Origin: a virus
DNA: 35,842 nt
IMG/VR virus record: IMGVR_UViG_3300007775_000018
Location: 1 to 35,842 of that record
Strand: one strand, 5' to 3'
The notes beneath the pieces are model-generated. The model ran no database searches. It saw nothing but the letters and a program-made list of their open reading frames with translations, and was not told the DNA's origin. The position numbers and the translations under genes are program-made. Positions within the stretch are counted from its first letter, which is position 1; each line of letters opens with the position of its first letter. Shown in pieces: positions 1 to 28,904 of the stretch.

Positions 1-21
1 AGATTACAGATGATCATCTGA

Positions 22-117
22 TACTCCATACTTCCGAAAGGTTCTCCCAACCCAGTGGACCCCGGAGCATATTGCGAATGTTACGATAAAGGGCGGTGCA
101 AATCTCGCACTGCTTAA
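22..117 (+). pseudogene. 3' remnant of a cassette gene related to the gene at 2040-2291
   Basis: The frame ending at the TAA at 115-117 encodes a C-terminus with the pattern DPGAYC-x3-YxKGRCK-x2-RTA, nearly the same as the end of the protein at 2040-2291. At DNA level 58-131 and 2231-2304 match at roughly 85 percent, counted by eye. The frame is closed upstream by a TGA at 19-21 and has no ribosome binding site. The part of the longer copy holding the GTTCAAGCGG arm is missing here, just after an AACCCA shared by both copies. It is probably a decayed or internally deleted relative; a GTG start at 55 cannot be excluded. Confidence 0.55.
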
Positions 118-130
118 CTCATTATTATGC
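46..130 (+). other. Degenerate attC-like site 0
   Basis: The right half keeps the classical attC-like GCTTAACTC (112-120) followed by the core ATTATGC (124-130). The left half keeps only AACCCA near 49-54. The crossover triplet is ATT instead of GTT, as at the related site ending at 2304. Bases 125-130 (TTATGC) match the reverse complement of GCATAAC at 351-357, which closes the next cassette. Confidence 0.5.
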
Positions 131-142
131 GAAAGGAGCCAA

Positions 143-356
143 ATGGAATACGTCATTTTTGATATGGATTGGCTTGATATCCCAATACAAGATTACCCTG
201 TCGGAAATCTTGCAATATGCCATGATCCGCAAAAGAGGCTCGGTGAAGTAACCTGGGGGTGTCGTGCGTGTTGACAGCGGAAATCCTCCGCCCCAAGCTC
301 TGGGCTTGTTTTGGGATAAAGAGGAAGCAATCAGATACGCGGAAAGCTACGCATAA
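143..356 (+). pseudogene. Cassette 1 gene, small hypothetical protein, frameshifted
   Basis: An AAGGAG site at 133-138 leads to the ATG at 143. The open frame runs 43 codons to a TGA at 272-274. A second frame, entered by one extra base at the GGGGG run (255-259), continues without a stop to the TAA at 354-356. It ends in a natural-looking C-terminus (LGLFWDKEEAIRYAESYA). Removing one G would give a single protein of about 70 residues whose stop codon lies inside the TAAC core of the next attC, as in several other cassettes here. The family is not recognised. The cause may be a sequencing error, a true mutation or slippage on the G run. Confidence 0.6.
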
Positions 357-411
357 CACCAAAATGAACGGCGAGCCCAAAAATCCGGGCCGCGTTATTT
401 AATCGTTATGC
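351..411 (+). other. attC-like site 1
   Basis: GCATAAC (351-357) and GTTATGC (405-411) are exact reverse complements and bound a 61 bp element. The inner arms ACGGCGAGCCC (368-378) and GGGCCGCGT (388-396) pair with extra bases on the left arm, around an A-rich loop. The left core also matches TTATGC at the start of its own cassette (125-130). Confidence 0.8.
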
Positions 412-425
412 CTAAAGGAGAAATT

Positions 426-641
426 ATGAGCCATCCAAACTATAAACATATTGGAACTCCTGAAGATCGCATGATTGAAGAAGTTGGTGAAATCCTTCAG
501 GCTATCGGAAAAGGCAAGCGTTTTGGCTGGAATCATCATCATCCAGACCGACCAGATGCGACAAATCTTTCCGAATTATCAAAGGAATTGGATGATCTTT
601 TTGAAGCGTTCAAGGATCTTAGGAACAGCATAACAAAATAA
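426..641 (+). CDS. MazG-like nucleotide pyrophosphohydrolase (cassette 2)
   Basis: This 71-residue protein resembles the short MazG-like proteins common in phages, which hydrolyse nucleoside triphosphates to monophosphates and pyrophosphate in the cytoplasm. The metal-binding pattern EExxE is present at residues 18-22 (EEVGE) and ExxD at 54-57 (ELDD). They are separated by a loop containing RFGW and HHPDRP, as in phage members of the family. It is shorter than the cellular two-domain MazG. The ATG at 426 follows AAAGGAG (414-420) at good spacing; an in-frame ATG at 408 lies before that site and is rejected. The stop codon lies inside the following attC. As a cassette cargo it could adjust nucleotide pools or alarmone signals during infection; that role is inferred. 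Confidence 0.75.
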   Translation: MSHPNYKHIGTPEDRMIEEVGEILQAIGKGKRFGWNHHHPDRPDATNLSELSKELDDLFEAFKDLRNSITK

Positions 642-676
642 TAGAGCAGACAAGCTGCTCATCATCATGGTTATAA
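628..676 (+). other. attC-like site 2
   Basis: This is the shortest site in the array at 49 bp. GCATAAC (628-634) pairs with the first bases of cassette 2 (GTTATGC at 405-411). The right core is GTTATAA (670-676). A perfect six-base stem GAGCAG/CTGCTC (644-649, 655-660) closes a five-base loop. Confidence 0.75.
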
Positions 677-693
677 TTTTAAGGAGGAATCGT

Positions 694-876
694 ATGGCAA
701 AATCACACATTGAAGTCCTGGAAATGATTTCAGAAGATATGAAAAATGACGCAAAGAATTTTGACGGCAAACCGTTTAATGGTCGCACGGTCGCAGAATA
801 TTTCGGCAATCAAGGTGCTGCAATATCAGCACTGGCTAGGATCTTAAAGGATGTCTTAAGGGAAGGTAAATTATAA
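694..876 (+). CDS. Small hypothetical protein (cassette 3)
   Basis: This 60-residue protein is soluble and mostly helical by composition, with no cysteine pairs or membrane segment. I do not recognise a family. The ATG at 694 follows AAGGAGG (681-687) with a seven-base gap; the longer frame from 667 would begin before this site and is rejected. The stop codon TAA is part of the TAAC core of the attC that follows (870-877), so the coding region fills the cassette completely. No function is assigned. Confidence 0.65.
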   Translation: MAKSHIEVLEMISEDMKNDAKNFDGKPFNGRTVAEYFGNQGAAISALARILKDVLREGKL

Positions 877-927
877 CAACGGCTTTGAGCCGATGCGTAC
901 CGCACAGGCTCAAGCCGGACGTTATCT
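870..927 (+). other. attC-like site 3
   Basis: ATTATAAC (870-877) is the reverse complement of GTTATAAT at the start of its own cassette (670-677), and the match extends a few bases further. The right core is GTTATCT (921-927). The arms CGGCTTTGAGCC (880-891) and GGCTCAAGCCG (907-917) pair perfectly apart from one extra T on the left arm. An extrahelical base of that kind sets strand choice in attC recombination. Confidence 0.85.
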
Positions 928-943
928 GTATGGAGAAAAATAA

Positions 944-1144
944 ATGAAACGCAAAGAAGATATACTTGATGAACAGCATTGGAAATTTGACGATTACCGC
1001 CAAAGAATAAAATCAAAGGACTGGAAACAACTTTTGTTAAATGACGATGATCGTATCATCTACCGGGGTAGGGTTATACCACTTGTCGGTAAAAGCCTTG
1101 GGTGTGGTGTCTATGAAATATCAAAACAGATAACCAACGGGTGA
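944..1144 (+). CDS. Small hypothetical protein (cassette 4)
   Basis: This 66-residue protein is charged and basic near the N-terminus (MKRKED) and has a short C-terminal part with GRVIPLVGKSLG that looks beta-rich. No known family is recognised and there is no signal peptide or membrane helix. GGAG near 932-935 precedes the ATG at 944. The last four codons and the stop run into the following attC, whose left core supplies part of the coding sequence. It is a stand-alone cassette with no partner gene, so context gives no functional clue. Confidence 0.6.
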   Translation: MKRKEDILDEQHWKFDDYRQRIKSKDWKQLLLNDDDRIIYRGRVIPLVGKSLGCGVYEISKQITNG

Positions 1145-1188
1145 ACTTGACGCCAAAAAGACGGCGCAAGTTACCCTTATCGTTATAA
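1128..1188 (+). other. attC-like site 4
   Basis: ACAGATAAC (1126-1134) is the exact reverse complement of GTTATCTGT at the start of its own cassette (921-929). The right core is GTTATAA (1182-1188). The long arms GGGTGAACTTGACGCC (1139-1154) and GGCGCAAGTTACCC (1163-1176) pair fully except for an extra G and an extra A on the left arm. Confidence 0.87.
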
Positions 1189-1207
1189 ATCGAAAGGAGT
1201 AATCAAC

Positions 1208-1447
1208 ATGATCCATGCAAGAGACGACTATAATCGTATTCAAGACCCTGCCGGTAAAATCGCATACGATGAACCTGTTTTCCTTATTCGGGCAAAGGAT
1301 AAGGTTTCGGCTGCTGCTGTCAGGGCCTGGGCGGAATTGCACAAGGCCGCTGGTGGCGATCCTGTGCTTTCGCAGATTGCGTATGACCATGCAGATCGGA
1401 TAGAAGATTGGCAATCGGAGCACGAAAGCAAATCAGCAGATTTATAA
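1208..1447 (+). CDS. Small phage-type hypothetical protein (cassette 5)
   Basis: This 79-residue acidic protein has the pattern DEPVFLIRAKD (about residues 21-31) followed by VRAWAELHKAAGG and HADRIEDW. From memory the same layout occurs in short hypothetical proteins of other phages; the family has no function known to me. The ATG at 1208 follows AAAGGAG (1193-1199) with an eight-base gap. The stop TAA (1445-1447) lies in the attC core. It looks like an intact, self-contained cassette gene whose sequence type belongs to phage genomes rather than to classical resistance integrons. Confidence 0.7.
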   Translation: MIHARDDYNRIQDPAGKIAYDEPVFLIRAKDKVSAAAVRAWAELHKAAGGDPVLSQIAYDHADRIEDWQSEHESKSADL

Positions 1448-1508
1448 CCAGCGGGTGAACAGCGACCGGGCCAAACTGCGGCCCGTCCCGTTACCCTATC
1501 CGTTATAT
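1442..1508 (+). other. attC-like site 5
   Basis: GATTTATAAC (1439-1448) is the reverse complement of GTTATAAATC at the start of its own cassette (1182-1191), ten of ten. The right core is GTTATAT (1502-1508). The arms begin GGGTGAAC and end GTTACCC, as in site 4, with an inner GGGCC/GGCCC pairing. Confidence 0.85.
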
Positions 1509-1523
1509 TTCTTGGAGGATATT

Positions 1524-1730
1524 ATGGACGAAGGTACAGTGATACAGGCCGCTAAAATGTGGGCACTGGTGGCAGAGATGGAAGAAGTCAAGGCGAATAT
1601 TGAGGCCATGAAGGCAGACAATCAGGAACGGGAGGCAAGAGGAGAAGCGTTAGCGTGGCCGTACTCAATGTTCCAAGACGCTTCGGAGGCGTTGTCAAAA
1701 GTGTCATGGAAATTGAGAAACGAAATATAA
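1524..1730 (+). CDS. Small helical hypothetical protein (cassette 6)
   Basis: This 68-residue protein is almost wholly predicted helix, with a charged stretch (MEEVKANIEAMKADNQERE, residues about 19-37) that could form a coiled coil. It is not recognised as any family. The ATG at 1524 follows TTGGAGG (1512-1518). An upstream in-frame ATG at 1455 lies within attC site 5 and is rejected. The TAA stop (1728-1730) is provided by the next attC core. A dimerising or regulatory helix is possible but unsupported. Confidence 0.6.
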   Translation: MDEGTVIQAAKMWALVAEMEEVKANIEAMKADNQEREARGEALAWPYSMFQDASEALSKVSWKLRNEI

Positions 1731-1785
1731 CCAGCGCATAGAGCGGACGGCAAAAAGCGCCGCCGCTCATGCTTAATCGTTAGAA
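1725..1785 (+). other. attC-like site 6
   Basis: GAAATATAAC (1722-1731) is the reverse complement of GTTATATTTC at the start of its own cassette (1502-1511). The right core is GTTAGAA (1779-1785). The arms GCATAGAGCGGACGGC (1736-1751) and GCCGCCGCTCATGC (1759-1772) pair with two extra A bases on the left arm. Confidence 0.87.
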
Positions 1786-1799
1786 GGAGGAGGAACTTG

Positions 1800-1964
1800 A
1801 TGGATCAGCCAATAAACATTATTTTTGACGGTCCTCCTGGACCGGAGGCTGGAAGATTTGTGGAGGTAGAAACGGATGAGGGAAAATCTATAAACATAGG
1901 TGGATGGGTTGAGCGCCCTGACGGTCTTTGGGCGCTCAGAATCACAAATCTGCCCAAGGTCTAA
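1800..1964 (+). CDS. Short phage protein of the GPPGPEAGRFVEVE type (cassette 7)
   Basis: The 54-residue product carries FDGPPGPEAGRFVEVE (residues 9-24), GKSINIGGWVERP (28-40) and GLWALRI (42-48). From memory, very similar short proteins occur in many phages, usually near replication or nucleotide genes; their function is unknown to me. It is predicted to be a small beta-rich domain. The ATG at 1800 lies after GGAGGAGGAAC (1786-1796), a strong ribosome binding site. The TAA stop at 1962-1964 lies in the core GTCTAAC. This is another cassette whose cargo is clearly of phage type. Confidence 0.75.
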   Translation: MDQPINIIFDGPPGPEAGRFVEVETDEGKSINIGGWVERPDGLWALRITNLPKV

Positions 1965-2033
1965 CCCAGCAATGAACCCGACTCCCAACCCACCGTTCAA
2001 GCGGATGCGGAGCCGGTGAGATAAATGTTAGGA
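1959..2033 (+). other. attC-like site 7
   Basis: GTCTAAC (1959-1965) matches GTTAGA at the start of its own cassette over six bases. The right core is GTTAGGA (2027-2033). The element is 75 bp and contains GTTCAAGCGG (1995-2004), a classical attC left-arm sequence, without the expected CCGCTTAAC partner. A CACCG/CGGTG stem (1991-1995, 2014-2018) is possible. It may be a hybrid of two sites. Confidence 0.65.
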
Positions 2034-2039
2034 GGCTTT

Positions 2040-2291
2040 ATGGAAATAGCAAATTGTCTTAACTGCGGAACACACAAGGGACCGGCATATATTTATTGTC
2101 AGCATCTCATGGACGCCATTCAGCTTGGTGGCTTCGACGAAACCGGCGAAACGAGAGCGTGCAGTCATTATACACACGCCACACAACCCACCGTTCAAGC
2201 GGATGAGGAATTGCGATGTGGATGTCACATGGACCCCGGCGCGTATTGCGATTTTTACGAAAAAGGACGGTGCAAGTGCCGCACCGCTTAA
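2040..2291 (+). CDS. Small cysteine-rich protein whose 3' half lies within attC-like sequence (cassette 8)
   Basis: The 83-residue product has C6xxC9, C20 and C41 in its first half and C60xC62, C70 and C78xC80 in its second half, so a zinc-binding or disulfide-rich fold is plausible. The first half (CLNCGTHKGPAYIYC) looks like a small phage zinc-ribbon protein. The second half is encoded by DNA that begins with an attC left arm (GTTCAAGCGG at 2193-2202) and ends with its partner CCGCTTAAC (2284-2292). The C-terminus is therefore read through a long attC loop. The ATG at 2040 follows TTAGGAGG (2029-2036). The related fragment at 22-117 shows the second half is a recurrent unit. Confidence 0.6.
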   Translation: MEIANCLNCGTHKGPAYIYCQHLMDAIQLGGFDETGETRACSHYTHATQPTVQADEELRCGCHMDPGAYCDFYEKGRCKCRTA

Positions 2292-2304
2292 CTCATTATT
2301 ATGT
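2181..2304 (+). other. attC-like site 8 with long coding loop
   Basis: The left arm GTTCAAGCGG (2193-2202) and right arm CCGCTTAAC (2284-2292) pair with one extra G, the canonical attC arrangement. The outer cores are ACACAAC (2181-2187) and ATTATGT (2298-2304), with ATT at the crossover. The left core does not match the start of cassette 8 (GTTAGGAGG), unlike neighbouring sites. The loop of about 80 bases encodes the protein C-terminus. Confidence 0.6.
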
Positions 2305-2315
2305 GGGAGGTGGAA

Positions 2316-2588
2316 ATGTCAACAACATGCACAAGGTGTGAAAATTCCGGGTTTTTAAATCTGCACAAAATAGACGATGGGATATTAAAAATTTTCGATG
2401 ATACAGGAGATCCGCAGGTCATTTTTGATTGGATAGAGTGGTACGATGATTACGATGTTCAGGTTTGTGATTGTTGTGGTGACGGCGAAATCTGGTATGG
2501 TGTGCCGGGAGAGCATTACAATTCAGACGATCCACCGGGGCATGATGGCCCATATGCCTATAATGGTGGCCTGTGTGAATGCCATTAA
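2316..2588 (+). CDS. Small zinc-ribbon-like protein (cassette 9)
   Basis: The 90-residue acidic protein has a first pair C5xxC8 (CTRCENSGF) and a second cluster C51-D-C53-C54-GDGE, then a C-terminal CxCH (GLCECH). The spacing suggests a treble-clef or DnaJ-like zinc knuckle, with an acidic middle region rich in D and W. The family is not recognised. The ATG at 2316 follows GGGAGG (2305-2310); the ATG at 2301 lies at the cassette boundary before that site and is rejected. The stop TAA (2586-2588) directly precedes the attC core. Confidence 0.6.
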   Translation: MSTTCTRCENSGFLNLHKIDDGILKIFDDTGDPQVIFDWIEWYDDYDVQVCDCCGDGEIWYGVPGEHYNSDDPPGHDGPYAYNGGLCECH

Positions 2589-2589
2589 C

Positions 2590-2647
2590 ACATAACAATT
2601 TTTTGGAGTGGACGCCAGGGCTCGCGCCACTCAAAACGACGTTAATC
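2590..2647 (+). other. attC-like site 9
   Basis: CACATAAC (2589-2596) matches the reverse complement of TTATGTG at the start of its own cassette (2299-2305). The right core is GTTAATC (2641-2647). The arms GAGTGGACGC and GCGCCACTC pair with one extra A on the left arm. Confidence 0.82.
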
Positions 2648-2663
2648 AGAGGAGAATCAAATA

Positions 2664-2864
2664 TTGGATTGCAAGACAATAGACAGTGGCATCTGCCCTG
2701 AATGCCAAGGGAGAATGAGAGCTTCAGACCACACGGAAAATAATGGTTTCAATCGATATTGTGACAACTGCTCGGTAAAATACCGATTTCATGACGATCT
2801 TGGCCCCGGAGCTTATACAAAAATAATGATTAACCAGTCAATTCAGCGGTCCGAAAGCCGCTGA
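2664..2864 (+). CDS. Small zinc-ribbon protein, TTG start (cassette 10)
   Basis: The 66-residue product has two CxxC knuckles, C11-PE-C14 and C33-DN-C36, the spacing of a classic zinc ribbon. Such small ribbons often bind nucleic acid or act as adaptors. No ATG is available; the TTG at 2664 sits about ten bases after AGAGGAG (2648-2654), so I choose it. The last codons overlap the left core and arm of the following site (TGATTAAC at 2827-2834). The protein tail (QSIQRSESR) is therefore attC-encoded and probably has no conserved role. Confidence 0.6.
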   Translation: MDCKTIDSGICPECQGRMRASDHTENNGFNRYCDNCSVKYRFHDDLGPGAYTKIMINQSIQRSESR

Positions 2865-2865
2865 G
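2827..2865 (+). other. Truncated attC-like site 10, right core missing
   Basis: TGATTAAC (2827-2834) is the exact reverse complement of GTTAATCA at the start of its own cassette (2641-2648). The stem CAGCGG/CCGCTG is intact. No GTT-type right core follows; the sequence goes straight into the ribosome binding site of the next gene. A short deletion seems to have removed the right core. Confidence 0.7.
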
Positions 2866-2882
2866 CAAGGAGGAGAGAGAAA

Positions 2883-3083
2883 ATGCCTGAATATGATTTG
2901 AATGTATGCGCCTGGCAAATTATAAAGGTGACTGCAAATAATGAAAAAGAAGCGGTCGAAGATGCGTTCTGTGAAGCATTCGGACGCAGCAGAAGCCATT
3001 TTGCTACAACCAAATATGAGCTTTGTGGAGTTAGTGACCGCCAACCAGAAGATTCACCTGACTCCGCTTCGCTCTGCGGGTGA
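2883..3083 (+). CDS. Small hypothetical protein (cassette 11)
   Basis: The 66-residue product begins with a compact alpha/beta-looking stretch (MPEYDLNVCAWQIIKVTANNEKEAVEDAF) and ends in a low-complexity tail read through the attC. It has no confident family assignment. The ATG at 2883 follows AAGGAGGAGAG (2867-2877). Because the upstream recombination site has lost its right core, this gene is now physically joined to cassette 10. The stop TGA (3081-3083) lies in the right arm of site 11. Confidence 0.6.
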   Translation: MPEYDLNVCAWQIIKVTANNEKEAVEDAFCEAFGRSRSHFATTKYELCGVSDRQPEDSPDSASLCG

Positions 3084-3097
3084 TCTTGGCGTTGGAA
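3039..3097 (+). other. attC-like site 11
   Basis: CGCCAAC (3039-3045) and GTTGGAA (3091-3097) bound the element. The arms AGATTCACC and GGTGATCT pair with one extra T on the left arm, and the inner part CCGC...GCGG continues the stem. The left core no longer has a matching cassette start because the upstream boundary is lost. Confidence 0.78.
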
Positions 3098-3107
3098 GGT
3101 TTTACAT

Positions 3108-3470
3108 ATGAAAATAGATAGGCAATTAATTTATCAGAAATTCGGTGGCAGATGTGCTTATTGTGGCCGTGAAATTACAGTCAAACAAATGCAAGTGGAT
3201 CATTACTGGCCCCAATTTCTGGCCCATTTCCAGCCCAATCTCGACAACAACAGAATTGAAAACCTTATGCCTTCATGTGCCAAATGCAACAATCATAAAC
3301 ACGGAATGCGACCGGAAATATGGCGTAAAGAATTGGAATTGCAAGTAACCCGACTTAGAAAAAATACTCAGTTTGATCGCGCTTTAAGATTTGGGCAACT
3401 CCAAATAACAGAAAAGCCGGTGGTTTTTTATTTTGAAACCTTCCAACCAGGCAATATAGCCGACACCTAA
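3108..3470 (+). CDS. HNH endonuclease (cassette 12)
   Basis: The 120-residue protein is a minimal HNH nuclease that should nick or cut DNA using one metal ion. It shows C16xxC19 (CAYCG), the catalytic-region DH at 31-32 (QVDHYWP), N52 in IENLMPSC, then C57xxC60 followed by NNHK (61-64). This matches the zinc-supported HNH fold of phage and homing endonucleases. The ATG at 3108 is served by GGAAGG (3094-3099), which is itself part of the attC right core. It is the largest gene in the array and the last intact cassette before the virion operon. Mobility, restriction or packaging roles cannot be distinguished here. Confidence 0.85.
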   Translation: MKIDRQLIYQKFGGRCAYCGREITVKQMQVDHYWPQFLAHFQPNLDNNRIENLMPSCAKCNNHKHGMRPEIWRKELELQVTRLRKNTQFDRALRFGQLQITEKPVVFYFETFQPGNIADT

Positions 3471-3566
3471 AAGCCGTGTCGGTGTGAGGAACTAAAAAAA
3501 TCATCTGCCGTTTGCCCTGCACATTGTCCTAATGTGCAATGGTGCGGCTAATTTTTAACGTTAAGG
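3441..3566 (+). other. attC-like site 12, long, last of the array
   Basis: AAACCTTCCAAC (3436-3447) is the reverse complement of GTTGGAAGGTTT at the start of its own cassette (3091-3102), twelve of twelve. The right core is GTTAAGG (3560-3566). The 126 bp interior holds two hairpins: CCGACAC/GTGTCGG (3460-3466, 3476-3482) and GCACATT/AATGTGC (3519-3525, 3531-3537). The latter is enclosed by GCCG/CGGC. Confidence 0.8.
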
Positions 3567-3636: not shown

Positions 3637-3647
3637 TGTTGTTTATA

Positions 3648-3824
3648 TCAACTCTTGTTCGCCTTCGCAACCTTCACACGCGTCAACGCCGCACCGATAA
3701 TAATCCCCGCTGTTTCACCCCTTGAGTCAGGTGAAATCAGGGTGTAACACAAAACCCCGGCGATAACGACAAAAATAAGCGGTCCCAGGTTTGCGGATAT
3801 GATCTCTGTGAATGCTTCTTTCAT
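3648..3824 (-). CDS. Small single-span membrane protein
   Basis: The 58-residue product has one hydrophobic segment (about residues 13-30, LGPLIFVVIAGVLCYTLI) flanked by a short acidic N-terminus and a basic C-terminus (TRVKVAKANKS). Its start ATG overlaps the stop of the preceding gene by an ATGA junction, so the two are probably translationally coupled. It is the last gene before the operon terminator. A holin-like or other membrane-lesion role would fit size and position, but no endolysin is visible in the window, so this is only a possibility. Confidence 0.7.
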   Translation of the reverse strand: MKEAFTEIISANLGPLIFVVIAGVLCYTLISPDSRGETAGIIIGAALTRVKVAKANKS

Positions 3825-3979
3825 TTTTTATCCTGTGTGTGTCCGAAAATGAGGTCTGCCGTCCCCATCAGAATATCGTCCCAGTCCTCTTTTGGATCGT
3901 CAACGGCCTTTTTTAATACCGGCCTCATACCTGGATACATCGCTCTCAAAATTGACAAAATAATTACTGCTGATTCCAT
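3821..3979 (-). CDS. Small hypothetical protein
   Basis: The 52-residue product has a mildly hydrophobic first segment (MESAVIILSILRAMYP) and a charged second half (KKAVDDPKEDWDDILMG). It is too short for a family call. An AGGAGG site at 3986-3991 precedes the ATG at 3979. The stop codon overlaps the start of the next gene. The neighbours on both sides are tiny membrane proteins, so it may act with them at the membrane. Confidence 0.65.
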   Translation of the reverse strand: MESAVIILSILRAMYPGMRPVLKKAVDDPKEDWDDILMGTADLIFGHTQDKK

Positions 3980-3992
3980 AATAAACCTCCTG

Positions 3993-4076
3993 TCAAAAAT
4001 AAATCGTTACCAGCACAAGCGCCAACATCGCAAGGCCCATAGCGGCTACGATAATGAGCATGTCACGATTCATCAT
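3993..4076 (-). CDS. Tiny membrane protein of 27 residues
   Basis: The frame starts with ATGATG inside the end of the preceding gene. After MMNRD, it encodes an almost entirely hydrophobic segment (MLIIVAAMGLAMLALVLVTIYF) and a stop. This is one membrane helix and little else. AAAGGA lies upstream of the start on the minus strand. The overlap with the upstream gene and the close neighbours on both sides argue for a real, coupled small gene. A holin-like peptide is one option; no motif proves it. Confidence 0.6.
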   Translation of the reverse strand: MMNRDMLIIVAAMGLAMLALVLVTIYF

Positions 4077-4419
4077 CACGGTCCTTTAATGTGTGCTTAA
4101 TCACTTCAACGTCAATTTTTAAGTCCGTCAGTTGGCTTGATATGTCACACTGGTTTCTATTCAAAATCAACAGCATATCCCTCTGCCCGCTCCACATCGT
4201 ACCAACAATTATGCCGAGTACGATAATAATGGCCGATGAGATTGAGATCATCATTTTAACTGACATTTTTCTTTCGATGGCGGTCCATATCCTTTCGACC
4301 GTCGCGTCACGATCATGTTGATTTGTCCGAACCGTATTCATTTCAGCACGAAGTCCTGTATGCAACTTGCAACACGAATTGTCTTTTTGCACGTCCTTTT
4401 CAGCTTCAGCTCCGGCCAT
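4063..4419 (-). CDS. Membrane protein with helical flanks
   Basis: The 118-residue product has an acidic N-terminal domain with CCKLHTGLRAEM and a helical stretch. One membrane span (SISSAIIIVLGIIVGTMW, about residues 58-75) and a C-terminal helical region with heptad-like leucine/isoleucine spacing (LTDLKIDVEVIKHTLKDRD) follow. The ATG at 4419 is preceded by AGAGGAG with good spacing; a TTG one codon upstream is less likely. The arrangement helix-span-helix is seen in phage haemolysin-XhlA-like and spanin-like proteins, which act with holins in lysis. I cannot assign it to either family by motif. Confidence 0.65.
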   Translation of the reverse strand: MAGAEAEKDVQKDNSCCKLHTGLRAEMNTVRTNQHDRDATVERIWTAIERKMSVKMMISISSAIIIVLGIIVGTMWSGQRDMLLILNRNQCDISSQLTDLKIDVEVIKHTLKDRDDES

Positions 4420-4445
4420 CAAGTTCTCCTCTCACATAATTCCTT

Positions 4446-4748
4446 TCACGGTGTGCCGTCCTCAAACGCTATCCCCGCGCCGGGGAGGGAGGTGACGGGT
4501 TGCACTTTATTGTTCGCATCGCAGGTTTCAGTGCCGTCAGAAACAAAGTAATCTCCGATGATAAGTCCAGTGCCGAAATGGTCCGCTTCGGTTGCCGTGA
4601 TTTTGTACGGGGTGTCTTTGGTAAGGGTTCCGCTGTTTATCTCACTCCCCAACACCTCAGTCCCGCCGATGCCCTGGATGTCGGTTGCAAAAGCCACCCC
4701 CGGCACAAGCCACAACACAACCGCTATCGATATTAATAATTTTTTCAT
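4446..4748 (-). CDS. Small secreted phage protein
   Basis: The 100-residue product begins with a clear Sec signal peptide (MKKLLISIAVVLWLVPGVAFA) and a likely cleavage after AFA. The mature part contains LTKDTPYKITATEADHFG and GLIIGDYFVSDGTETC. That pattern recalls a short beta domain found in phage tail- or head-attached proteins, though I cannot name the family. It overlaps the gene upstream by four bases (ATGA). It is the last of a run of four small signal-peptide genes between the polyvalent protein and the membrane-protein cluster. Confidence 0.7.
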   Translation of the reverse strand: MKKLLISIAVVLWLVPGVAFATDIQGIGGTEVLGSEINSGTLTKDTPYKITATEADHFGTGLIIGDYFVSDGTETCDANNKVQPVTSLPGAGIAFEDGTP

Positions 4749-5116
4749 TCTGTAATCCTCACGCTGATATTTTTACTCGGACCGCTTTCTTCTTCACCCT
4801 TGTAAGCGGTCGCCCAGCATTTGTATTCCCCAACCGGCATTTCCACTTCGACCCATGTGTCTGTTGTCTCTGCTGTGATTTCCTGTGTTCCGGTGCATTT
4901 CAGTCTGTATCCGTCCACTTCATCAGTTGAAGGGTCCCACGCAAATGTCACCGGCCCTGCTTTTGTGACAGCTACTTCAACCCTACCAGCAGGGGCCAAG
5001 GTTATGGAGGTCACACCGTCTTTGGTGGTTAGCTGGACCATTTGGGGCCGCTGTAAATAGGTTGCCCAAGCGGTTGTCGCGAACAGCATCAAGGCTATTG
5101 TCAGAATCAACCTCAT
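4745..5116 (-). CDS. Secreted fibronectin type III-like protein
   Basis: The 123-residue product has a signal peptide (MRLILTIALMLFATTAWA) followed by a beta-sandwich with the fibronectin type III pattern: FAWDPSTDEVDGYRLKC, a tryptophan-containing middle strand and YKCWATAYKGEEESGPSKN near the end. Such domains bind carbohydrate or protein surfaces and are common on phage virions. I choose the ATG at 5116, whose start overlaps the upstream stop as TAATG; a longer frame from 5152 would put the signal peptide internally. A surface-adhesion or periplasmic role is inferred. Confidence 0.75.
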   Translation of the reverse strand: MRLILTIALMLFATTAWATYLQRPQMVQLTTKDGVTSITLAPAGRVEVAVTKAGPVTFAWDPSTDEVDGYRLKCTGTQEITAETTDTWVEVEMPVGEYKCWATAYKGEEESGPSKNISVRITE

Positions 5117-5880
5117 TACTTTACCCACCAGGTAGAATTCGTAGCATCCCACATATAATCCACGCTGTCACCGGCATCGGCCAATGTCTGATCTGACCCC
5201 GTTGAAACATCCAGCGTGACATCATCACCACCATCAGAAACCAATGTAAATGTATGAATCTCACCGTCAACTGACCCGGCCGTTATTGTCATGGTATCGT
5301 TGGCCGCGTCTGACCCGCTCGTTATTCGGTGCCATGTGGTGGTAGAGGTGTAAGCGCAGGTATCACCATCATCGTTGCATGCAACATCGACTGAAGACAT
5401 GACGTAAACTTGATCAACCTCAAGGTTTCCCTTTACATTCGTGTCCAGGGAGGTTGTCCCCAATTCAAGTGTCGCATTCCCACCATCAAATAACATCCAG
5501 GTTTCCAGGCTGCCACCAACATACCCACGTATCCACCCGCTGGCGTCCTGAGTGCCATCGCCTGTGTCGGTCAGGTTCCAGTAAAATTGTGCCGTATCAC
5601 CAGGGCTTGCCGCTTCGTCGTTGCTGTCTTTCCATGAAATACTGGGGAGTGCGCTGGCGGCTGTGGAGAGGGTGTCTATATAACCAACGCCATCAACATA
5701 CAGGTCTTTCCATGCCTTTGTACTTGACCCGATGTCGTAAGCGTCGTCAACCCCAGGGATCACATTTGTTAGAAGGCCCGACCAGTTGGGTCCACCCGAC
5801 TGTAAAATTATGGTTTTACCCTCGCCGTAAGCCAGGGAGGGCATGAGAATTATCAGCATCAGCAAGAGTAATTTCTTCAT
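5116..5880 (-). CDS. Secreted tail-fibre-like protein
   Basis: The 254-residue product starts with a signal peptide (MKKLLLLMLIILMPSLAYG). It then carries the fibre motif VDDAYDIGSSTKAWKDLYVDG, given in parts: DDAYDIGSS and AWKDLYVDG, the sequence type that marks trimeric phage tail fibres and spikes. The rest is beta-rich, with a C-terminal region (TFTLVSDGGDDVTLDVSTG, ending DATNSTWWVK) that could form a receptor-binding tip. The ATG at 5880 follows AAGGAG with an eight-base gap; a TTG two codons upstream is too close to it. A fibre with a Sec signal is unexpected because virions assemble in the cytoplasm. Confidence 0.7.
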   Translation of the reverse strand: MKKLLLLMLIILMPSLAYGEGKTIILQSGGPNWSGLLTNVIPGVDDAYDIGSSTKAWKDLYVDGVGYIDTLSTAASALPSISWKDSNDEAASPGDTAQFYWNLTDTGDGTQDASGWIRGYVGGSLETWMLFDGGNATLELGTTSLDTNVKGNLEVDQVYVMSSVDVACNDDGDTCAYTSTTTWHRITSGSDAANDTMTITAGSVDGEIHTFTLVSDGGDDVTLDVSTGSDQTLADAGDSVDYMWDATNSTWWVK

Positions 5881-5890
5881 TTTCAACTCC

Positions 5891-6325
5891 TTATCTCACA
5901 AAGTAAATTCGGATTGTTCCAGATTTGCTATTCCCAGCGTTTGTAACATCCATCGTAAGTGTGCCAGGAACCGGAAGCATCGTGTAGTTCCCGTTGAGTA
6001 ATGGCATGGTCAACTCGGTTGCTGTGGCAGACCTATCGCCTAACGCCCCACCCATCACATCAATTCCATTAGCGTCATTTAGAACAATGTCGTAATCAGC
6101 AGTAGGTGCAGTAGCACTCGGATCGGTCTCAACCAACATCAGATACCCCTCTATGGGGTAGGCAGTGTCAGTCGCGGTGAAATTACCGGAGCTGTCGGTT
6201 GTCCACACCATTTGAAGCACATTGATAGACCCTCCAGCCTGTAATGTCTGGACGCACGACTCCGCACCCCAACTCACGGACACCATGAATAAAACCATTA
6301 CCATTGCCAAAAATACCTTTTTCAT
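5891..6325 (-). CDS. Small secreted phage protein
   Basis: The 144-residue product has a signal peptide (MKKVFLAMVMVLFMVSVSWG) with a likely cleavage before AESC. The mature part is beta-rich and holds GYLMLVETDP, ADYDIVLNDANGIDVMGG and a C-terminal SGTIRIYFVR. I have seen similar hypothetical proteins near phage tail genes but know no function. The ATG at 6325 follows GGGAGGGAG; a longer frame from 6358 would begin inside a terminator hairpin and is rejected. It is the first gene after that terminator and opens the run of signal-peptide genes. Confidence 0.7.
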   Translation of the reverse strand: MKKVFLAMVMVLFMVSVSWGAESCVQTLQAGGSINVLQMVWTTDSSGNFTATDTAYPIEGYLMLVETDPSATAPTADYDIVLNDANGIDVMGGALGDRSATATELTMPLLNGNYTMLPVPGTLTMDVTNAGNSKSGTIRIYFVR

Positions 6326-6340
6326 AACTCCCTCCCTTAA

Positions 6341-6375
6341 AATAAAAAACCCATGCACCGTTTGTGGTACATGGG
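6341..6375 (-). terminator. Rho-independent terminator after the polyvalent protein gene
   Basis: On the minus strand CCCATGTACC (6375-6366) pairs with GGTGCATGGG (6359-6350), with one G-U pair, and is followed by a TTTTTTATT run. A second small hairpin (GCGGT...ACCGC) sits just upstream at about 6380-6400. The pair separates the giant gene from the small secreted proteins. Confidence 0.85.
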
Positions 6376-6421
6376 CCTTGCGGTGTCCCGTGGGACCGCT
6401 TGGTAACCTGGTTGTTTTGTG

Positions 6422-9400
6422 TTAGCTGTTTTTTAAGGCTCTCTGCACAGCGTCTTCAGCGTATCGCAGCTTCCTCTGACTGAGGTTGTTTATCTGGCTA
6501 CGCTTCTGCTCTGCTGTGAGCGTTGTGGATGCCAGTATCCTTTCGATACGCCTGTTGATCTTGGATATCTTCGTCTTAGTCCTGTTGAGGGCTTTCCTGA
6601 ATCTGAGTTTGCTTCTATTGTCTGCCAATAGCTCTCTTGCTTCTTCTCTCTTGCCTAGAACCCTGTAGTCATTGATAGTACTGTTGATCTGGTTTAAATC
6701 GCTGGTCAGGTTATACAGCTTGGTCAAGAACTTTGAGTGCTGCTGGCTTTTTGTATCCCTAAGAAAACGTCCCGCCAATGGATACTGGCTCAATGGTATT
6801 GTCGGCTTTGCAGGAAAGTCCCCAGCAGACCTGACAATCATATCTGATATCCCTAGCGCGAACATCCCCACTGTTGAAAAATAACCCCTGATAAGCGCCT
6901 CTGCCCTTACAGGGGATACCCCTAGTTTATCCGCAAGCTGGTTGTTCAGGATCGTATTCAATGTAATAGAGGTATAGGGGCTTTTCCGCTGTGACGGTAA
7001 GAGGTTTTGCATCCCCATGCCCTCGATAGGTCTTCCAGTGAAAAACGATTTGCCAGCCCACTGCTCAATGATCGGCCTCCCCACCTGTGGCATAGGGTTG
7101 AAAGCAAGGGTATTTAAAACTGAATTCCCGATAGCTTTAAATATATGGACAGGTTCATCGGTCCCCGTCATGGTATCCAGAGCAGCTTCTATAAGCGAAG
7201 GCAGTATCCCTAGCTCAAACGTCCTGGGAATCCTGAACTGGTAATCGCCAATCCAGAAATTGTGGTATGCCAGTTTCTCCCAATCCTCAAGCTGTCCGTA
7301 GTGTTCATCAAAGTCATCGTCATCCTGCGCCAACCCCCACAATGCTATGGAAGTCAAAGTCATGTACCCCAGTTTCAACCCCACACTCTTTGGATCAGCT
7401 TTCGCTGCCCGGCCCAATTTATACAACCCCTGCATTCGGGCATTGGCAAAGGGTAGCATGCGGATTAGCATCTGGACGGTTCTTGAATCCCCACGCATGG
7501 TGAAATCAAGTAGATCCCTGGCTTCAAACGCAGCGTCAAACCGTGACTTACCTTCCTTGATCTTCTTGGTGAATAACTGAACTCTGGCGGCATCTTCAGA
7601 CGCAGCACCGATTGCCTCCCACCAATCCAGGAAACTTTTCAGCTTCTTCGGTGAATCCAATATGCGTTTGCTGCTGCCATCTTTTTTGATTACCCGTTTA
7701 ACGTATTTAGCCATCGCCTGTGGGTCTTCAGAGTGGATATAGCTTGCCCCCTGGCCAGCGTTACTGCTCTGGAAGTTGATCCAATCCTGGTCTTCCCTGA
7801 GTGCCTTGCCGAACCCTATAGCGGTGTCCCAGAAGGGTATGAAACTCTTTGAGATAATGGACGTATGAACAGTATCCCTGATCATATTGGCTACCCTGAA
7901 CGCCGGACCGAATGTAGCACCGTAGGTGAGTATTTTCTTCGGGCCACCAAACATCACGCTCATCAGTTTGTTCATTCTGACGGCATTAACATTGGTCATG
8001 GCATTGAACAGTTCTGGGTCATTTATTTTTACATTGAGTTGTTTCCCCTTATTGTAGAAACTGATTACATTGTTGTCATTGGCGTTGGTCATCATAACCG
8101 ACTTTACGGTTCTGGGTTCTATCTCATACCCCTTGCCAAGACCTTTTATGTAATCCTGGGCGTCTTCCATTGTATCGAGGACTTTCTTGGCTCTCTGGCT
8201 ACCTCTCTTTATGACCGCAAACTTCTTCTCGGTTTTGGCTCCAAGGACCTTGATAAGGTCTTTCTTGGCCATCAGTTGCATGGCGGGAAGGGTCTCCCCT
8301 GACTCCACATCAACCATAGAACTCATCACCCCTTTAGACCCCGCATACGCTGCGTTGGTGGCCACATTACGGTTGGCTTCCTGTATCATGTGGGACCAGT
8401 TCTTCAGGGTGTTCTCAAACAAATCCCCTATCTGTGCTTCACGCCCTGTCAACCGTTTAATACCAGCAGATATGTGTTTTTTGCTCTGCATCGGTCCCTG
8501 AAGGAACGCCTGAGACCCGTCTTCGATCAACCGATAGAATGGCACATAAAAGTCCTGCTCCCATTCCTTACGGGCTTCACCGTCAATCAACCCTGACGCT
8601 TCAGCATAATCAAGGATATTTTTGTTGTACTCTTGAAATTTGCTGTTCAGTTCCTCCCATGTTCCACCGCTTGCGGGTTTGTCAGGGATCGTCTCCATGA
8701 TCTCTTTCCTGGCATTTTCTGTGAGCCAGTTTTCCCTGTCCTGGCTGTCCAGCACTTCGGCCCTTTTCACCGCTGCCCATGTCAGTAGGTCTTCAGCGTC
8801 ATTCCCTTTCAGTTCCTTGAACCATGACAAAACCCCCTTACCTTTGGTCTTGACAATGGGTAACCCCTCATCCGTCATTTCGATCTTGCCGTCAATCAGG
8901 AACCGCTTGAAGGTACTCATGGACCCCGTGGTGAGCCGAAAGAGCTTGTACGCTTCCATTCCCACAGATTTGATGGGGTTAAACCTGTCAAATATTCTGG
9001 TAGTAGCGTTCTTTTTGAAGGATGTAGAGACCTCCTCTTTTATCTTTTCAAACGTCTTCGGGGTTCTGCCAAAGTACTTACTCCGAATATCGTCTTCCCT
9101 TGTCACCCTGTCAAACCGCACATCGTCAGGATCATACGCCAGCGTGGATTTGTCCTTGGGGTGCCCCGGTTTGTCCACATTGTAGAGGTACATGGTTTTG
9201 TTGATCTCAGGGATGACCCACTTGTCCTTGAACTTGAGGGACGATTCAGGGACGTTGTGGCGTTGGGATATGTTGGCTCTGGCTTGTTGGTCGATGTTCT
9301 TCTCACCTGCGTAGGAAAACATCGGCATGCCCTCGCTGATTGCCTTGTTCCTCATTTCGGGGGTTATGGGAAGGGTCCAGACTTCAACCCCAGGAGGTTC

Positions 9401-12400
9401 ACCTATTTGAATCTTTTTGCGACCCCCTGTTACCCTACCTGTTGCAAGGCTGATACGGCGTCTTTGTTCTTTAAATTGTCCAGTTATCTCCCCCACCCCA
9501 ACCTTAGCTTTGCCCCAGGCTTTCTTGTTGAAGAATTTATTGACGGCTGCGGGAAGTATTTTATCATAGAAGCCTTTCATGCCTTCGCCGCCTACTTTGA
9601 GGTCTTCTCCTTCCAGCACATGCTCGACCCCTTCTCGCTGAGTCGGTCCGTACTTAAATTTGTTTGGCTTAGATGCTATTAGTTTTTCAGCAGCCTCTTT
9701 ACCTATTATATCTGGAAGTGTCTTTTCTGTTGCATAGGTGTCTATTACCTCGTCACCATTTTTACCATAGGCTTTTAATTTTGATGCGTGTTTAAGCCAT
9801 ACAACTTTAGAAACCTGCTTACTCAAATCATACCGATCCGCTTGGACCTCTCCGGGAGTCCAAGATATTGCATCAAACCCGTTGGATGCGGCGTATCGCA
9901 CCATTCTTTTGAAGGCCATGAGGGGCCAGGTCTTTTTGAAGGGGAAATTTGGAACGCCTTCAAAAGCTAGTTTCTCACCTAATTGTTTTGCTTCGACACG
10001 TTCCTTGCTTGGAAGAGCGTCTAACCCTATTTCATCAATTTTCCTTTGAAGTTCATCGGCCCTTTTTCGTTCCTTTGCTGATATTCTGTACCCTTTCTTT
10101 CTCCCCTCTTGATGAAGGTCACTCTGTATCTCTTCCACAAACAACACCCGGTTCCCGTCCGCGTCCGTGCGTTCGTTGAATCGGACGTGCGCCAGGACGT
10201 TGGGTTCATCCCAATGGGAGGATTTATATTGTTCTTTGCGCCTGATAGTCCCTTCGTCAACGCGCATCTGCTCTATGACTTTATCCTTCTGGTCTTCTCG
10301 CAATTCATTGAAAGGTTTTCCGAAAAGCATTTCAGCGTAGTCGCCTGTGGTTTCTGGAAGTTTCACGCCACGTTCCGGCAACGTCAGCAGCAGTTCCTTG
10401 TAATTTTCACCACCGGGGGTTTGGTATTCGGAGTATTCGGTAGAATCGTCGGCCTCAGGGTCTGTTAAATAGACTCTCGCCTCATCCCTTGTATATCCTT
10501 GCCCTAGTTCATCATCCAAAAATGTATCAATATCATCTTCAGTTGGGATATAATCACTTTTCACAACCTCCTGAATCTGAACATTGTTTTGTTTCAGGTA
10601 GTCAAGAACCTCCTGCTTGCTCACCTTCCCGTCTTTCCCATCCAGCCAATCCAGCACACCGCTCCACTCCAATTCTTCCGCTTTATATTCCCCCTTGTCT
10701 GCCCATGACTTGAGGGTTTGCGCTATCTGCTTCGGGGAGCCCGAACCGGGGAGCTTCTGTTTGAGAAAGTTCGTCATCTGGGAGTACCACTTGTCGCCCA
10801 TTTGTTGGTATTGACTCTGCCTATCCGCCTCAACCCGGCGCCCAATCGTCTCCTGATCCAGCAGGGGATATCCCTTCTTCCAGAGCTTGTTGAACACATC
10901 CTCAGCCGTCTTGAACCCCTGCCCCTGCAACCCATTTCGCACCCGCTTAAAGACCAACCGCAGCCTGCGGAATATCCTTAGAATCGTCGATGGTTGACGA
11001 TCACGCCCCTTCGCCCTTTTGACGAAATCCGCAAACGCTTCAGCGGCCTTTTCTTCGTTCCCGCCAAAGTGATCCATTACGGTTTTGTAATCCGCGTCAG
11101 GGAGCAGCCAGCGGGCTGCTACGTGGAATGATTCATGGTATGTGTTCTTCTGTATGGTGCCCTTGTCAAAGCCGTAAGATAGCTCGACAAAGGCGTTTAG
11201 TTTGTCAACCGTGGCCGCGCCCATGATAGTGCCGGGATTTTTAATCTCGGACCATTGGGCTTCCGACTTACTGACATCTTTCCCTTTGCGTTCGATCTTG
11301 GGAGTCAGTTCCACCGCGATACGGTTTTTAAGGACTGACCTCGGGAGCACGTCTTTCAGCCAGCCGTAGACGTCTTTTTGGAGCTGTTTAAGCGCCTTCG
11401 GGTCTGCACCGACAGGCTTGGGCGTGCCATTCTGATCACCCTGAACATAGTGCGTTTCGGCGGTGGTAGGGTCATACGCCAGCGTGCTTTTGTCCTTCGG
11501 GTTCCCCGGCGCATCCACATTGTAGAGGTGTAGGGTCTTCCCGTTAATATCCCATGGGGCGTAATACTCCAAGGATTCAGCCGGTACGTTGTGACGCTTG
11601 GCTATGTCGGCGCGGGCGGCGGTGTCTATTTCTGGGGATACCGCTTCGGACATGGAATATCTGGAAGGGCGAATGGGAAGAGGGACTTCCCCTGAAAAAA
11701 ATCTCTTTATGTCATTGATGACCCTGGTTGCGGGAATGCCTTTGTCATACTTTCTCGAGAAAGACCGCGCTGGGGACAAATAATATTGGTCTTTAAGTTC
11801 TCCAAGCCCATCTTCAAGGTCAACAACAACCTCTCCTTTGTGCCGGTCTATAATCTTTCGGATAACTCGGTATTGCTCAGGGGTAGGCTCTTTGGCGATA
11901 TCCATAGACCCGGAATTATCATCCATTCGGATATACCCATAAGCCATGAGCTCTTTCATTCCCCGCGCCCCCCCGGCCTCGCGGTGATCGTAGGAGCGGG
12001 TTCCAGGTTCCCCGCCCTCGCTCTTTCCTGACAGGTCTATCATGGAGCCATCTTTAGCAATATATCCAGCTTCCCTCAGATCGTTGGTCTTCCCAAGCTC
12101 TTTAATCCGCGCCCACTCAATATTCTTAAAATCCTTCTTAGATTTAAGGGTCGTTTTTCTTTTTTCTACCGTCGCCTTGGCTTTTCGATAGGCCTTAACC
12201 CAATCCTCATTGACCAACTTCCCGTTTCTTTTTTCAATTAATCCCTTTACGTCTTTACCGCCCCTGACATCGTACCCCATGGATTTCAAGGTTTTGTTCA
12301 TGTTCGCCAAAACCTCTTTGGTAAGCGTTTTCGTGTCTATAATCTTTATTGTGGCTTCGGACATCGTGTAGAGGGGCGTTGTCATTCCTCCGCCTATTGG

Positions 12401-15052: not shown

Positions 15053-15064
15053 TGAGCTACCTCA

Positions 15065-16522
15065 TCAATACCAGCCGTAGTCTCCGCCTTCATCCATATT
15101 GTAATTGTCTGGGGATAACCTTTTGTCCTGCCAACTTTGAGCCTCCGCCCATTTCATACGTTCTTCCATCATTCGCTCTTCTTCCATCTGCCGCATCAGT
15201 TCTTCGTCTTCTGAAGCCAGTTCGGGTTCGTAATCTGGCGCATCCGAAAAACCCTCTGGCGTCAACCCACGCCGTGCGCCCCAATCTGAATTCCAAGCGT
15301 CCTTTGCTGAGTTAAGCCCCTCGCTAGCACTTCCATACACATCCTGTGCCAACCTACCAACATCTCCGAAACCCTTTCCCTCGTACCCAGTGTAAGGTTC
15401 ACGAACGGGCTCTTGGGGCGTAGGAGCAAGCGTCTTTTCAGGGACATAACCCCCAACATCGTAATTTTCAGGGTACTGTATTTTGCCGGAAACGGGGCCG
15501 TACCCAGACGCCCCTGCTTCTTGCGGTTGGGGGTCTGGTTTTGTTTCGGTTGGTTGAGCATCAACGGTATCCATCCCGTCCATCATACCTGGGTCAGAAC
15601 TTCCGTAAGAAGGCCCTTTTTTACCAAACTCCCCTTTAGTCATATCGTACAGGTCGCCAGGAGAAACTACTTTACCCGTTTCCCATGTATTAAATTTTCC
15701 AGGTTTCGGTCGTTTCGCAATGTAATTTCCATCGTCAGTAGGTTCAAATATCCATTGTTTGGGGTTGTCAGGGTTTCCTCCGGTGATTGCGATGGTTCCT
15801 TTCTTAGCGTCCCCTGGTCTAGCTTCCCCAGTAACTTCTATGGTTCCACCACCGTATTTTTCAGTCTTCTTGCCTTTCTTATCATCCTTATTGAATTGTT
15901 TCAGGACTGATTCGGCAATGGCACGGCGAACTGACCCTGTTTGTGGTTGCCTACCTAGTTGGGCGTCAAACGCTGAAACCCGGCCAAGCGCCTGCTGTAC
16001 CACCCAATCGTTCTTTTCTTTGGCGGTCATCTTCTTTGCTTGTTCTGTGTCGGCGTCCCAATTATCAGGGGTTTCCGCTAACCCACTGTCAATCTGTTTC
16101 CTTATATCCTCAGCGTTGGCCATGACTTCTTTGCGGTAAGCGGCTTTAGATTTTTTGCCACTTTCATCTTCCGCAACGATAGAATCACGGTACTCTTTTT
16201 CAGCCGCGGCGCGGGCCTTGGCTTGCTCCCTCTGCAAACCCTCAATGTACTTGAAGTAGTCAGAAGCCCCACTACCATATATACCATATACCTTCGGGGC
16301 CATGGGGCTACTATCATAAGACGCGCTCATCATGGACATTGAGTTGGGTTGCACGGTGTATCCGCCCATCGTGTTGGCAGGTCCTACGCTCCCGGTTGTT
16401 GGGGTAGACTGAACGTATTTTCTGGCAAACGCCCCCCAACCCTGCCGCGTCGGTGGTACGCCCTTCTTTTTGGCGTACTTGATATATGCTTCCAGCATTT
16501 GTTGTTCTTGGGGTGTTGCCAT
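15065..16522 (-). CDS. Virion-associated hypothetical protein
   Basis: The 485-residue product is hydrophilic. It starts with a helical stretch (EQQMLEAYIKYAKKKG) and GWGAFARKYVQ, then has charged helices (about residues 85-200). A small beta segment (GTIAITGGNPDNPKQWIFEP) follows, and the tail is proline- and acid-rich, ending in YNMDEGGDYGWY. It has no recognised family. It lies directly upstream of the giant polyvalent gene, 12 bases apart, and downstream of the long tail protein, so a second ejected or tail-hub component is the most natural guess. The acidic-aromatic C-terminus is similar in character to the N-terminus of its neighbour. Confidence 0.65.
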   Translation of the reverse strand: MATPQEQQMLEAYIKYAKKKGVPPTRQGWGAFARKYVQSTPTTGSVGPANTMGGYTVQPNSMSMMSASYDSSPMAPKVYGIYGSGASDYFKYIEGLQREQAKARAAAEKEYRDSIVAEDESGKKSKAAYRKEVMANAEDIRKQIDSGLAETPDNWDADTEQAKKMTAKEKNDWVVQQALGRVSAFDAQLGRQPQTGSVRRAIAESVLKQFNKDDKKGKKTEKYGGGTIEVTGEARPGDAKKGTIAITGGNPDNPKQWIFEPTDDGNYIAKRPKPGKFNTWETGKVVSPGDLYDMTKGEFGKKGPSYGSSDPGMMDGMDTVDAQPTETKPDPQPQEAGASGYGPVSGKIQYPENYDVGGYVPEKTLAPTPQEPVREPYTGYEGKGFGDVGRLAQDVYGSASEGLNSAKDAWNSDWGARRGLTPEGFSDAPDYEPELASEDEELMRQMEEERMMEERMKWAEAQSWQDKRLSPDNYNMDEGGDYGWY

Positions 16523-16531
16523 GTTGGTCTC

Positions 16532-17371: not shown

Positions 17372-17381
17372 AATATCCTCC

Positions 17382-23416: not shown

Positions 23417-23427
23417 GTTTTATACCT

Positions 23428-25743: not shown

Positions 25744-26060
25744 GGTTGCACCAAATGCCTCAATGCCTTAAAAGTCCAATCGTCAGTCGGAACAGCAACC
25801 CGTACCCTGATTGTATTGATGTTTTTGTCGATGGTGAGTAAAACGGTGGATGGAACAGTGCCTATATCTTTGATACGGCGAATAGCTTGTGACGGGGTTG
25901 AACTGGCGGTTTCGTCCCAATCGCCACGCAATTCCCCCGCCCGGCTATTGGTTCCATCGCTTATTCGGAAATCCCATACCGCTGAAACTCCGTTCGTGTC
26001 GGCAAAGCTGTCCACCGTTGAAGTTCCTGCGTCAATCGACTCGCTTATCGGTGTTGCCAT
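25740..26060 (-). CDS. Small virion-associated hypothetical protein
   Basis: The 106-residue product is soluble and beta-rich (SAVWDFRISDGTNSRAGELRG, seen in part as VWDFRISDGTN; VPSTVLLTIDKNINTIRVRV). No family is recognised. It lies immediately upstream of the tail-fibre gene with a four-base overlap and seven bases after the gene at 26068-26568, so the three are coupled. A small tail or fibre-attachment protein is the best guess from position; nothing in the sequence proves it. Confidence 0.6.
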   Translation of the reverse strand: MATPISESIDAGTSTVDSFADTNGVSAVWDFRISDGTNSRAGELRGDWDETASSTPSQAIRRIKDIGTVPSTVLLTIDKNINTIRVRVAVPTDDWTFKALRHLVQP

Positions 26061-26067
26061 TAATCAC

Positions 26068-27843: not shown

Positions 27844-27853
27844 GATTCACTCC

Positions 27854-28795: not shown

Positions 28796-28904
28796 AATTT
28801 TTTCCTTCTAGGAACACCCACAGGGCTAATAGTCAGTTTTCGTCAACTATCGCTTGTCTGAGACTGCTCGGATGATTTGCACACCCGCTTACCCATTTGA
28901 ATTG
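28796..28904 (-). other. Noncoding leader between endonuclease and beta-helix gene
   Basis: This stretch has no gene. On the minus strand it contains a short stem (ATAGT/ACTAT, 28829-28833 with 28846-28850) and a GTCT/AGAC pair. It could be a leader or the 3' part of an inserted element together with 29733-29847. I cannot identify conserved group I intron core elements with confidence. Confidence 0.4.

Follow-up and report, generated by a model that had tools for sequence, protein, structure and literature searches.

A Cassette Array of the Integron Type in a Phage Genome, with attC Sites Matching Those of Desulfobacterales

Introduction

At the left end of a viral contig, a run of small genes is separated by palindromes resembling the attC sites of integrons. 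This locus raises the question of whether a phage can carry genes as true integron cassettes and, if so, whose integrase moves them. Mosaicism is familiar in phage genomes, and the site-specific exchange of single genes is rarely documented. If such exchange takes place, it would offer a defined route, through host integrases, by which unrelated phages become mosaic; host integrons would become part of phage evolution, and a source would be given for many of the small unknown genes of integron cassettes.

In the screen of 10,705 phage genomes by Qi et al. 2023 (PMC9892861), three complete integrons, one lone integrase, and 17 attC clusters were detected, and IntI1 recombined five of the six phage attC sites tested. 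An earlier note on the present DNA, made from the sequence alone, suggested a new kind of module. This suggestion has to be dropped, since phage-borne integrons and attC clusters were published in 2023; a literature search excluding subscription papers and preprints found no further papers on them. What is added here to PMC9892861 is the size of the array, its host match, the phage-type cargo, the sharing of cassettes between phages, and the recurrent position of the arrays.

Genomic Context of the Array

The whole stretch analysed (hereinafter, the window) is a linear IMG/VR record of 35,842 bases, IMGVR_UViG_3300007775_000018. Its main features are as follows:

1-3566, plus strand: cassette array at the left end of the contig, about a dozen small genes
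3640..35814, minus strand: late (virion) operon converging on the array, encoding small proteins, a giant protein, tail, head, and portal
29848-30759, minus strand: major head protein, within the late operon
33691-35814, minus strand: portal, within the late operon

The array directly adjoins a minus-strand virion operon, as the earlier note had stated. The portal and the major head protein are encoded in the window, and a terminase-like gene, called by eye, is located in contig G001 (IMGVR_UViG_3300026196_000019), which encodes a capsid protein identical to that of the window, overlaps the window, and extends approximately 5.5 kb past the portal. These are the genes by which a virion-encoding phage was recognised. 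On the best reading, the array sits at the end of the early operon, where the early and late operons converge. The junction (~3566-3640) is covered by the window contig alone, with no second contig; an exact 24-mer beside it is absent from other viral contigs, and a search for relatives of the flanking protein (4063-4422) found none. A chimera is argued against by analogy with other phage arrays only: in the window and in the phages G152 and G138, described below, an array lies at the point where early and late genes converge.

Two other features of the late operon can be mentioned. A giant protein of 2876 aa (6422-15052, minus strand) has distant relatives with about 35% identity in isolate prophages. 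The Rfam search of the whole window gave a sole match, an int-alpA RNA (RF02996, 46.9 bits) at 29753-29820 on the minus strand, between the genes of the major head protein and endonuclease VII.

attC Sites

The sites were searched for in two ways. A structural detector required an R'' with an AAC core and an R' with a GTT core, separated by sequence that folds into a hairpin on the bottom strand. A covariance model, R1, was built from only seven attC sites, taken from class 1 integrons and the integron of Shewanella phage M16-3; the training sites were all aadA-like and were given the canonical attC structure. The first alignment, A1, which mixed attC types, was unsuitable as the basis of a model and gave way to the aadA-like sites. 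The following sites were found, all on the plus strand:

351-411: attC 1, R1 23.2 bits
628-676: attC 2, R1 17.0 bits
871-927: attC 3, R1 18.8 bits
1128-1188: attC 4, R1 28.7 bits
1442-1508: attC 5, R1 16.9 bits
1725-1785: attC 6, R1 31.4 bits
1959-2033: attC 7, found by the structural detector only and not by R1
2583-2647: attC 9, R1 19.7 bits (match 2590-2646)
3039-3097: attC 11, R1 27.8 bits
3441-3566: attC 12, the last of the array, R1 32.4 bits (default search)
~111-130: degenerate attC at the end of C0, from the sequence
2285-2304: degenerate attC at the end of C8, from the sequence
2828-2864: degenerate attC at the end of C10, R'' kept at 2828, R' lost

Thus, 13 sites lie within positions 1-3566, ten well-formed and three degenerate, and bound 12 one-gene units, all on the plus strand; the total agrees with the thirteen palindromes counted in the earlier note. 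The covariance-model check proposed there recovered nine sites of the array, eight with filters off and the one at 3441-3566 added by the default search. With filters off, the eight top matches of the window (31.4 to 16.9 bits) all fall on the plus strand of the array, and the best match in the remaining 32 kb reaches 10.9 bits. As positive controls, the published attC-carrying phages TJE1 and MW202573 were used, and the default R1 search recovered attC in both. The strict structural detector found five sites in positions 1-3600 (plus strand); in 200 dinucleotide shuffles, it found 0.155 on average and never more than 3. A CALIN takes at least two clustered attC sites; here, there are ten in 3.2 kb.

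Both the structural detector and R1 indicated R''/R' boxes, L''/L' arms, and extrahelical bases, so the core pairs described earlier are present. The extra bases are on the left arm, as in aadA attC, for example, GGTgAACTTGaCGCC / GGCGCAAGTTACC at 1128. Sites such as 1128 and 1725 share the plan of the class 1 integron attC of the aadA type: a 7-bp R box, an unpaired spacer, 3 bp, an extra base, 6 bp, an extra base, and the stem. However, outside the R boxes, the array sites show little sequence kinship with aadA-type attC and, unlike those of class 1 integrons, the cassettes are not resistance genes.

Cassette Boundaries

Along a linear integron array, each R' contributes its final six bases to the cassette that follows. 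Under the model of circles joined at G|TT, R'' should therefore pair with the first bases of its own cassette and not with the R' that follows it. This own-start pairing is perfect (7/7) in seven of the eight testable units of the window, a result reached by 9 of 200,000 permutations. When the window was taken together with phage G152, 13 of 15 units were perfect (0 of 100,000 permutations), whereas physically adjacent R''/R' pairs were perfect in only 2 of 18 cases. Units C8, C9, and C11 were left out of the test, as they adjoin a degenerate site; the R'' of C10 pairs 7/7 with the start of its own cassette. Own-cassette pairing is the strongest, internal proof of cassette units bounded at G|TT, and it confirms them. 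Hairpins acting as mere terminators are ruled out for the same reason, because R'' pairs with the start of its own cassette.

The R1 sites and own-start pairing bear out the identification of an integron-type cassette array. About a dozen single-gene plus-strand units with their own ribosome binding sites had also been claimed. There are indeed 12 units, and a Shine-Dalgarno-like motif precedes all twelve genes, with a cut-to-start distance of 16-25 nt in the eight units with an intact cut. Each unit carries one small gene in the same orientation, and the stop codons overlap R''. The description needs correction in that C1 is frameshifted, C0 is truncated by the contig end, and C8, C10, and the site before C1 have no intact attC. 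Since some sites are degenerate, part of the array may be frozen.

Cassette Genes

The genes of the array, all on the plus strand, are as follows:

1..130: C0, partial, 3' part of a C8-related gene truncated by the contig end
143..~360: C1, frameshifted, with its own RBS
426..641: C2, fragment of a MazG-like nucleotide pyrophosphohydrolase, phrog_4856, E 1.3e-7
694..876: C3, small protein with a relative in a phage region of a Desulfobacterales MAG
944..1144: C4, small protein, no family above the curated cut-off
1208..1447: C5, small protein, relatives in three other viral contigs (44-62% identity)
1524..1730: C6, small protein, no family above the curated cut-off
1800..1964: C7, phage accessory family phrog_28893 (Gordonia, Rhodococcus, and Pseudomonas phages)
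2040..2291: C8, mosaic Cys-rich small protein
2316..2588: C9, Cys-rich small protein, relatives in six other viral contigs (60-63% identity)
2664..2864: C10, Cys-rich small protein, TTG start
2883..3083: C11, small protein, no family found
3108..3470: C12, HNH endonuclease, PF01844, phrog_2118

Pfam matches of C3-C6 were below the cut-off and were disregarded. Judging by these families and relatives, the cassette genes look like phage-type genes, several of which have relatives in other phages. At the DNA level, a search of 50,697 phage records gave no match to the array. A 74-bp repeat (56-129 and 2230-2303, 86% identical), comprising a gene end and a degenerate attC in C0 and C8, is probably a duplicated or fused cassette. 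In contig L175, a C5 homologue lies between inverted repeats (~3980 and 4264-4301) ending with GTTAGGC and GTTAGCT; R1 gives them only 12.8 bits, and they were not counted as attC.

Relation to Desulfobacterales Integrons

A search of genome contigs with the 21-base core of attC 4 revealed matches in 12 contigs from 11 species genomes. Ten of these contigs, from nine genomes, belong to Desulfobacterota MAGs, and eight of the nine MAGs encode IntI above the curated cut-off; no such IntI was found in the other two genomes (alpha- and betaproteobacterial). A comparison with the host order was made using 85 genomes of one order, that of genome G043. The array DNA matches these genomes at attC sites only: attC 4 is 84-88% identical to attC sites in five of them, and the cassette genes have no DNA-level match in any of the 85. 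In the same set of genomes, attC 6 has a counterpart with 98% identity over 54 bp; it belongs to a bacterial cassette array (L178) whose genes are quite different from the window cassettes. Thus, the chromosomal integrons of Desulfobacterales have attC nearly identical to that of the window, and genomes of the host order encode IntI; unlike these integrons, the phage carries different cassette genes, and neither intI nor attI was seen in it. By sequence, the attC sites of the array match the integron type of Desulfobacterales, which are sulfate-reducing bacteria.

When eight cassette proteins of the window were joined as one query, the protein search of the host order gave a single match, that of C3 (61%), in a Desulfobacterales MAG contig. 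This contig encodes a DnaB helicase, a helicase loader, a tail-type peptidase, and a giant protein of 2,802 aa, and is, by its gene content, a phage region. The homology with the window C3 begins at the G|TT cut (5' end), and the C3 relative likewise sits where early genes meet the late operon.

Arrays in Other Phages and Cassette Sharing

The contigs G015 and G019, relatives of the window phage by capsid, contain attC sites. Of the 13 loci given by the first viral pattern scan, L131, a phage early region, was taken further as a true attC carrier, with a C9 homologue and a site 90% identical over 50 bp to attC 4; most of the others had no convincing site. A pattern derived from attC 6 matched 29 viral contigs, most with attC by R1; among them, virion genes were checked for G152, G138, and G159 only. 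The G152 genome (40.4 kb) encodes a terminase, portal, head protein, endolysin, RecT, exonuclease VIII, and an O-like initiator. It has two arrays, with ten attC sites in all, each flanked by phage genes. The G138 array is flanked by RecT on one side and by a lambda-J-type tail operon, encoded on the opposite strand, on the other.

Comparison of the viral contigs indicated that cassettes are shared singly. G138 and G159, two distinct phages found in the same sample, have one cassette in common (99% over 210 bp). The shared stretch starts at GTTAGTC, and the sequences preceding it are unrelated; towards the 3' end, the final bases ahead of GTT differ, so the cut is not clean. In the pairs L185/L204 and L188/L208, contigs of putative phages, homology of the shared cassette both begins and ends at GTT, and in L196/L198, the boundary is at G|TT at the 5' end. 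The earlier note named two results that would refute it, a lack of attC structure by covariance model and differences between relatives that miss the predicted G|TT positions. Both checks went the other way: R1 recovered attC sites, and homology between related contigs starts or stops at G|TT, at both ends in two pairs and at the 5' end in G138/G159, L196/L198, and the window C3 with the MAG. Movement of single units with G|TT ends is seen in the related viral contigs, and in the window itself for C3 only, at the 5' end. In addition, a DNA methyltransferase cassette gene (77%) is common to G019 and G152.

Several side observations were made on these contigs. In one array of G152, nearly the same attC occurs twice, behind different genes (L223 7045-7099 and 8227-8281). 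The cassette shared by G138 (L221 8656-8822) and G159 (~21940-22106) has an MFE z-score of -6.3 and no Rfam match; by this folding estimate, it appears to be a noncoding structured RNA. Many IMG/VR contigs of putative phages (L184-L212) have attC arrays with R1 scores of up to 44.6 bits, and a G+C-rich attC type with GTTCNNN R' boxes is found among them.

Source of the Integrase and Alternative Explanations

In an integron, intI is located on the 5' side of the array. In the window, this left side lies off the contig, and no intI was found in the window or in the contigs of 29 relatives, G001 included. IntI above the cut-off was found in none of the 30 viral contigs from the pattern scans, and no tyrosine recombinase was found in the window, G001, G015, G019, or L131. 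Both ends of the G152 and G138 arrays are visible, with no intI beside them. On the simplest account, the window array would have no integrase of its own and would be worked on in trans by host IntI on single-stranded attC, and an integrase would still be shuffling it.

The observed attC structures, cassette boundaries, attC match to the host, and single-cassette sharing between phages are probably explained by an array with no visible integrase, whose cassettes are moved singly by the IntI of the Desulfobacterales host and belong to a pool common to phages sharing hosts. Each unit comprises a single small gene of phage type that has a ribosome binding site of its own, and ends in an attC. When the phage infects a Desulfobacterales host bearing an integron, the host integrase would recognise phage attC sites folded from the bottom strand and cut at G|TT; cassettes would then be excised, reordered, or inserted one by one, and phages sharing hosts would draw on the common pool. 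We infer that host IntI did this work in trans and still does, and likewise what the cassettes do. Because host-type attC sites, phage-type genes, and single related cassettes in other phages occur together, phages appear to trade genes through the integron machinery of their hosts. There is about an even chance of the broader view being true, in which phages infecting hosts with integrons reserve a slot for cassettes where the early operon ends and, using host integrases, pass around a phage-specific accessory pool, including noncoding RNA; this would amount to a trans-acting phage integron swapping modules among otherwise unrelated phages.

Three other explanations were considered. The attC sites could be relics serving as terminators and short islands of homology, with genes shuffled by the ordinary homologous recombination of phages (RecT and others). 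The 80-98% similarity of attC between phages and hosts, the RecT genes near the arrays of G152 and G138, the degenerate sites, and the unclean 3' end of the G138/G159 cassette agree with it; however, random crossovers inside attC would not preserve own-start pairing, and homology sets in at G|TT next to unrelated sequence, which makes relics unlikely. Alternatively, a stretch of a host chromosomal integron might have been captured whole, as in Vibrio phage Va_90-11-286_p16, or misassembled onto the phage, and be passive cargo. The host type of the attC sites fits this, intact boundaries would also survive a single capture, and the junction has no independent covering contig. Nevertheless, the cassette genes are phage-type and absent at the DNA level from the 85 genomes, their sole protein match in the host order is in the phage region, arrays flanked by phage genes are also present in unrelated phages, on both sides, and single cassettes are shared rather than blocks, so that capture or misassembly seems rather improbable.

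Finally, the phage's own intI, with attI, could lie just to the left of position 1 and make a complete phage integron, like that of Shewanella phage M16-3; the missing side is exactly where the intI of an integron lies, and the attI site and Pc promoter would be expected there too. Against this stand the lack of IntI in the 30 and 29 contigs, the lack of tyrosine recombinases in the five contigs, and the G152 and G138 arrays bounded on both sides without intI, and we consider this very improbable. The movement of single cassettes by host IntI remains the preferred reading.

Comparison with Known Phage Arrays

The phage CALINs of PMC9892861, such as those of Tetrasphaera phage TJE1 and Pseudoalteromonas phage PH101, are attC clusters in one orientation with no intI in the phage genome; the window has the same kind of cluster and orientation, with no intI in the sequence visible. 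The TJE1 array has three attC sites and four ORFs, whereas the window has ten intact attC sites and twelve units. The complete integron of Shewanella phage M16-3 is also a cassette array in a phage genome; however, M16-3, an inactive prophage, carries an intI of its own, and no intI is visible in the window.

The C9 gene bears on how a gene becomes a cassette. None of its relatives in the six other viral contigs has an attC at the C9 stop codon, and in L158-L162, C9 is present with no attC; it is a plain gene in other phages and has an attC at its stop codon in the window.
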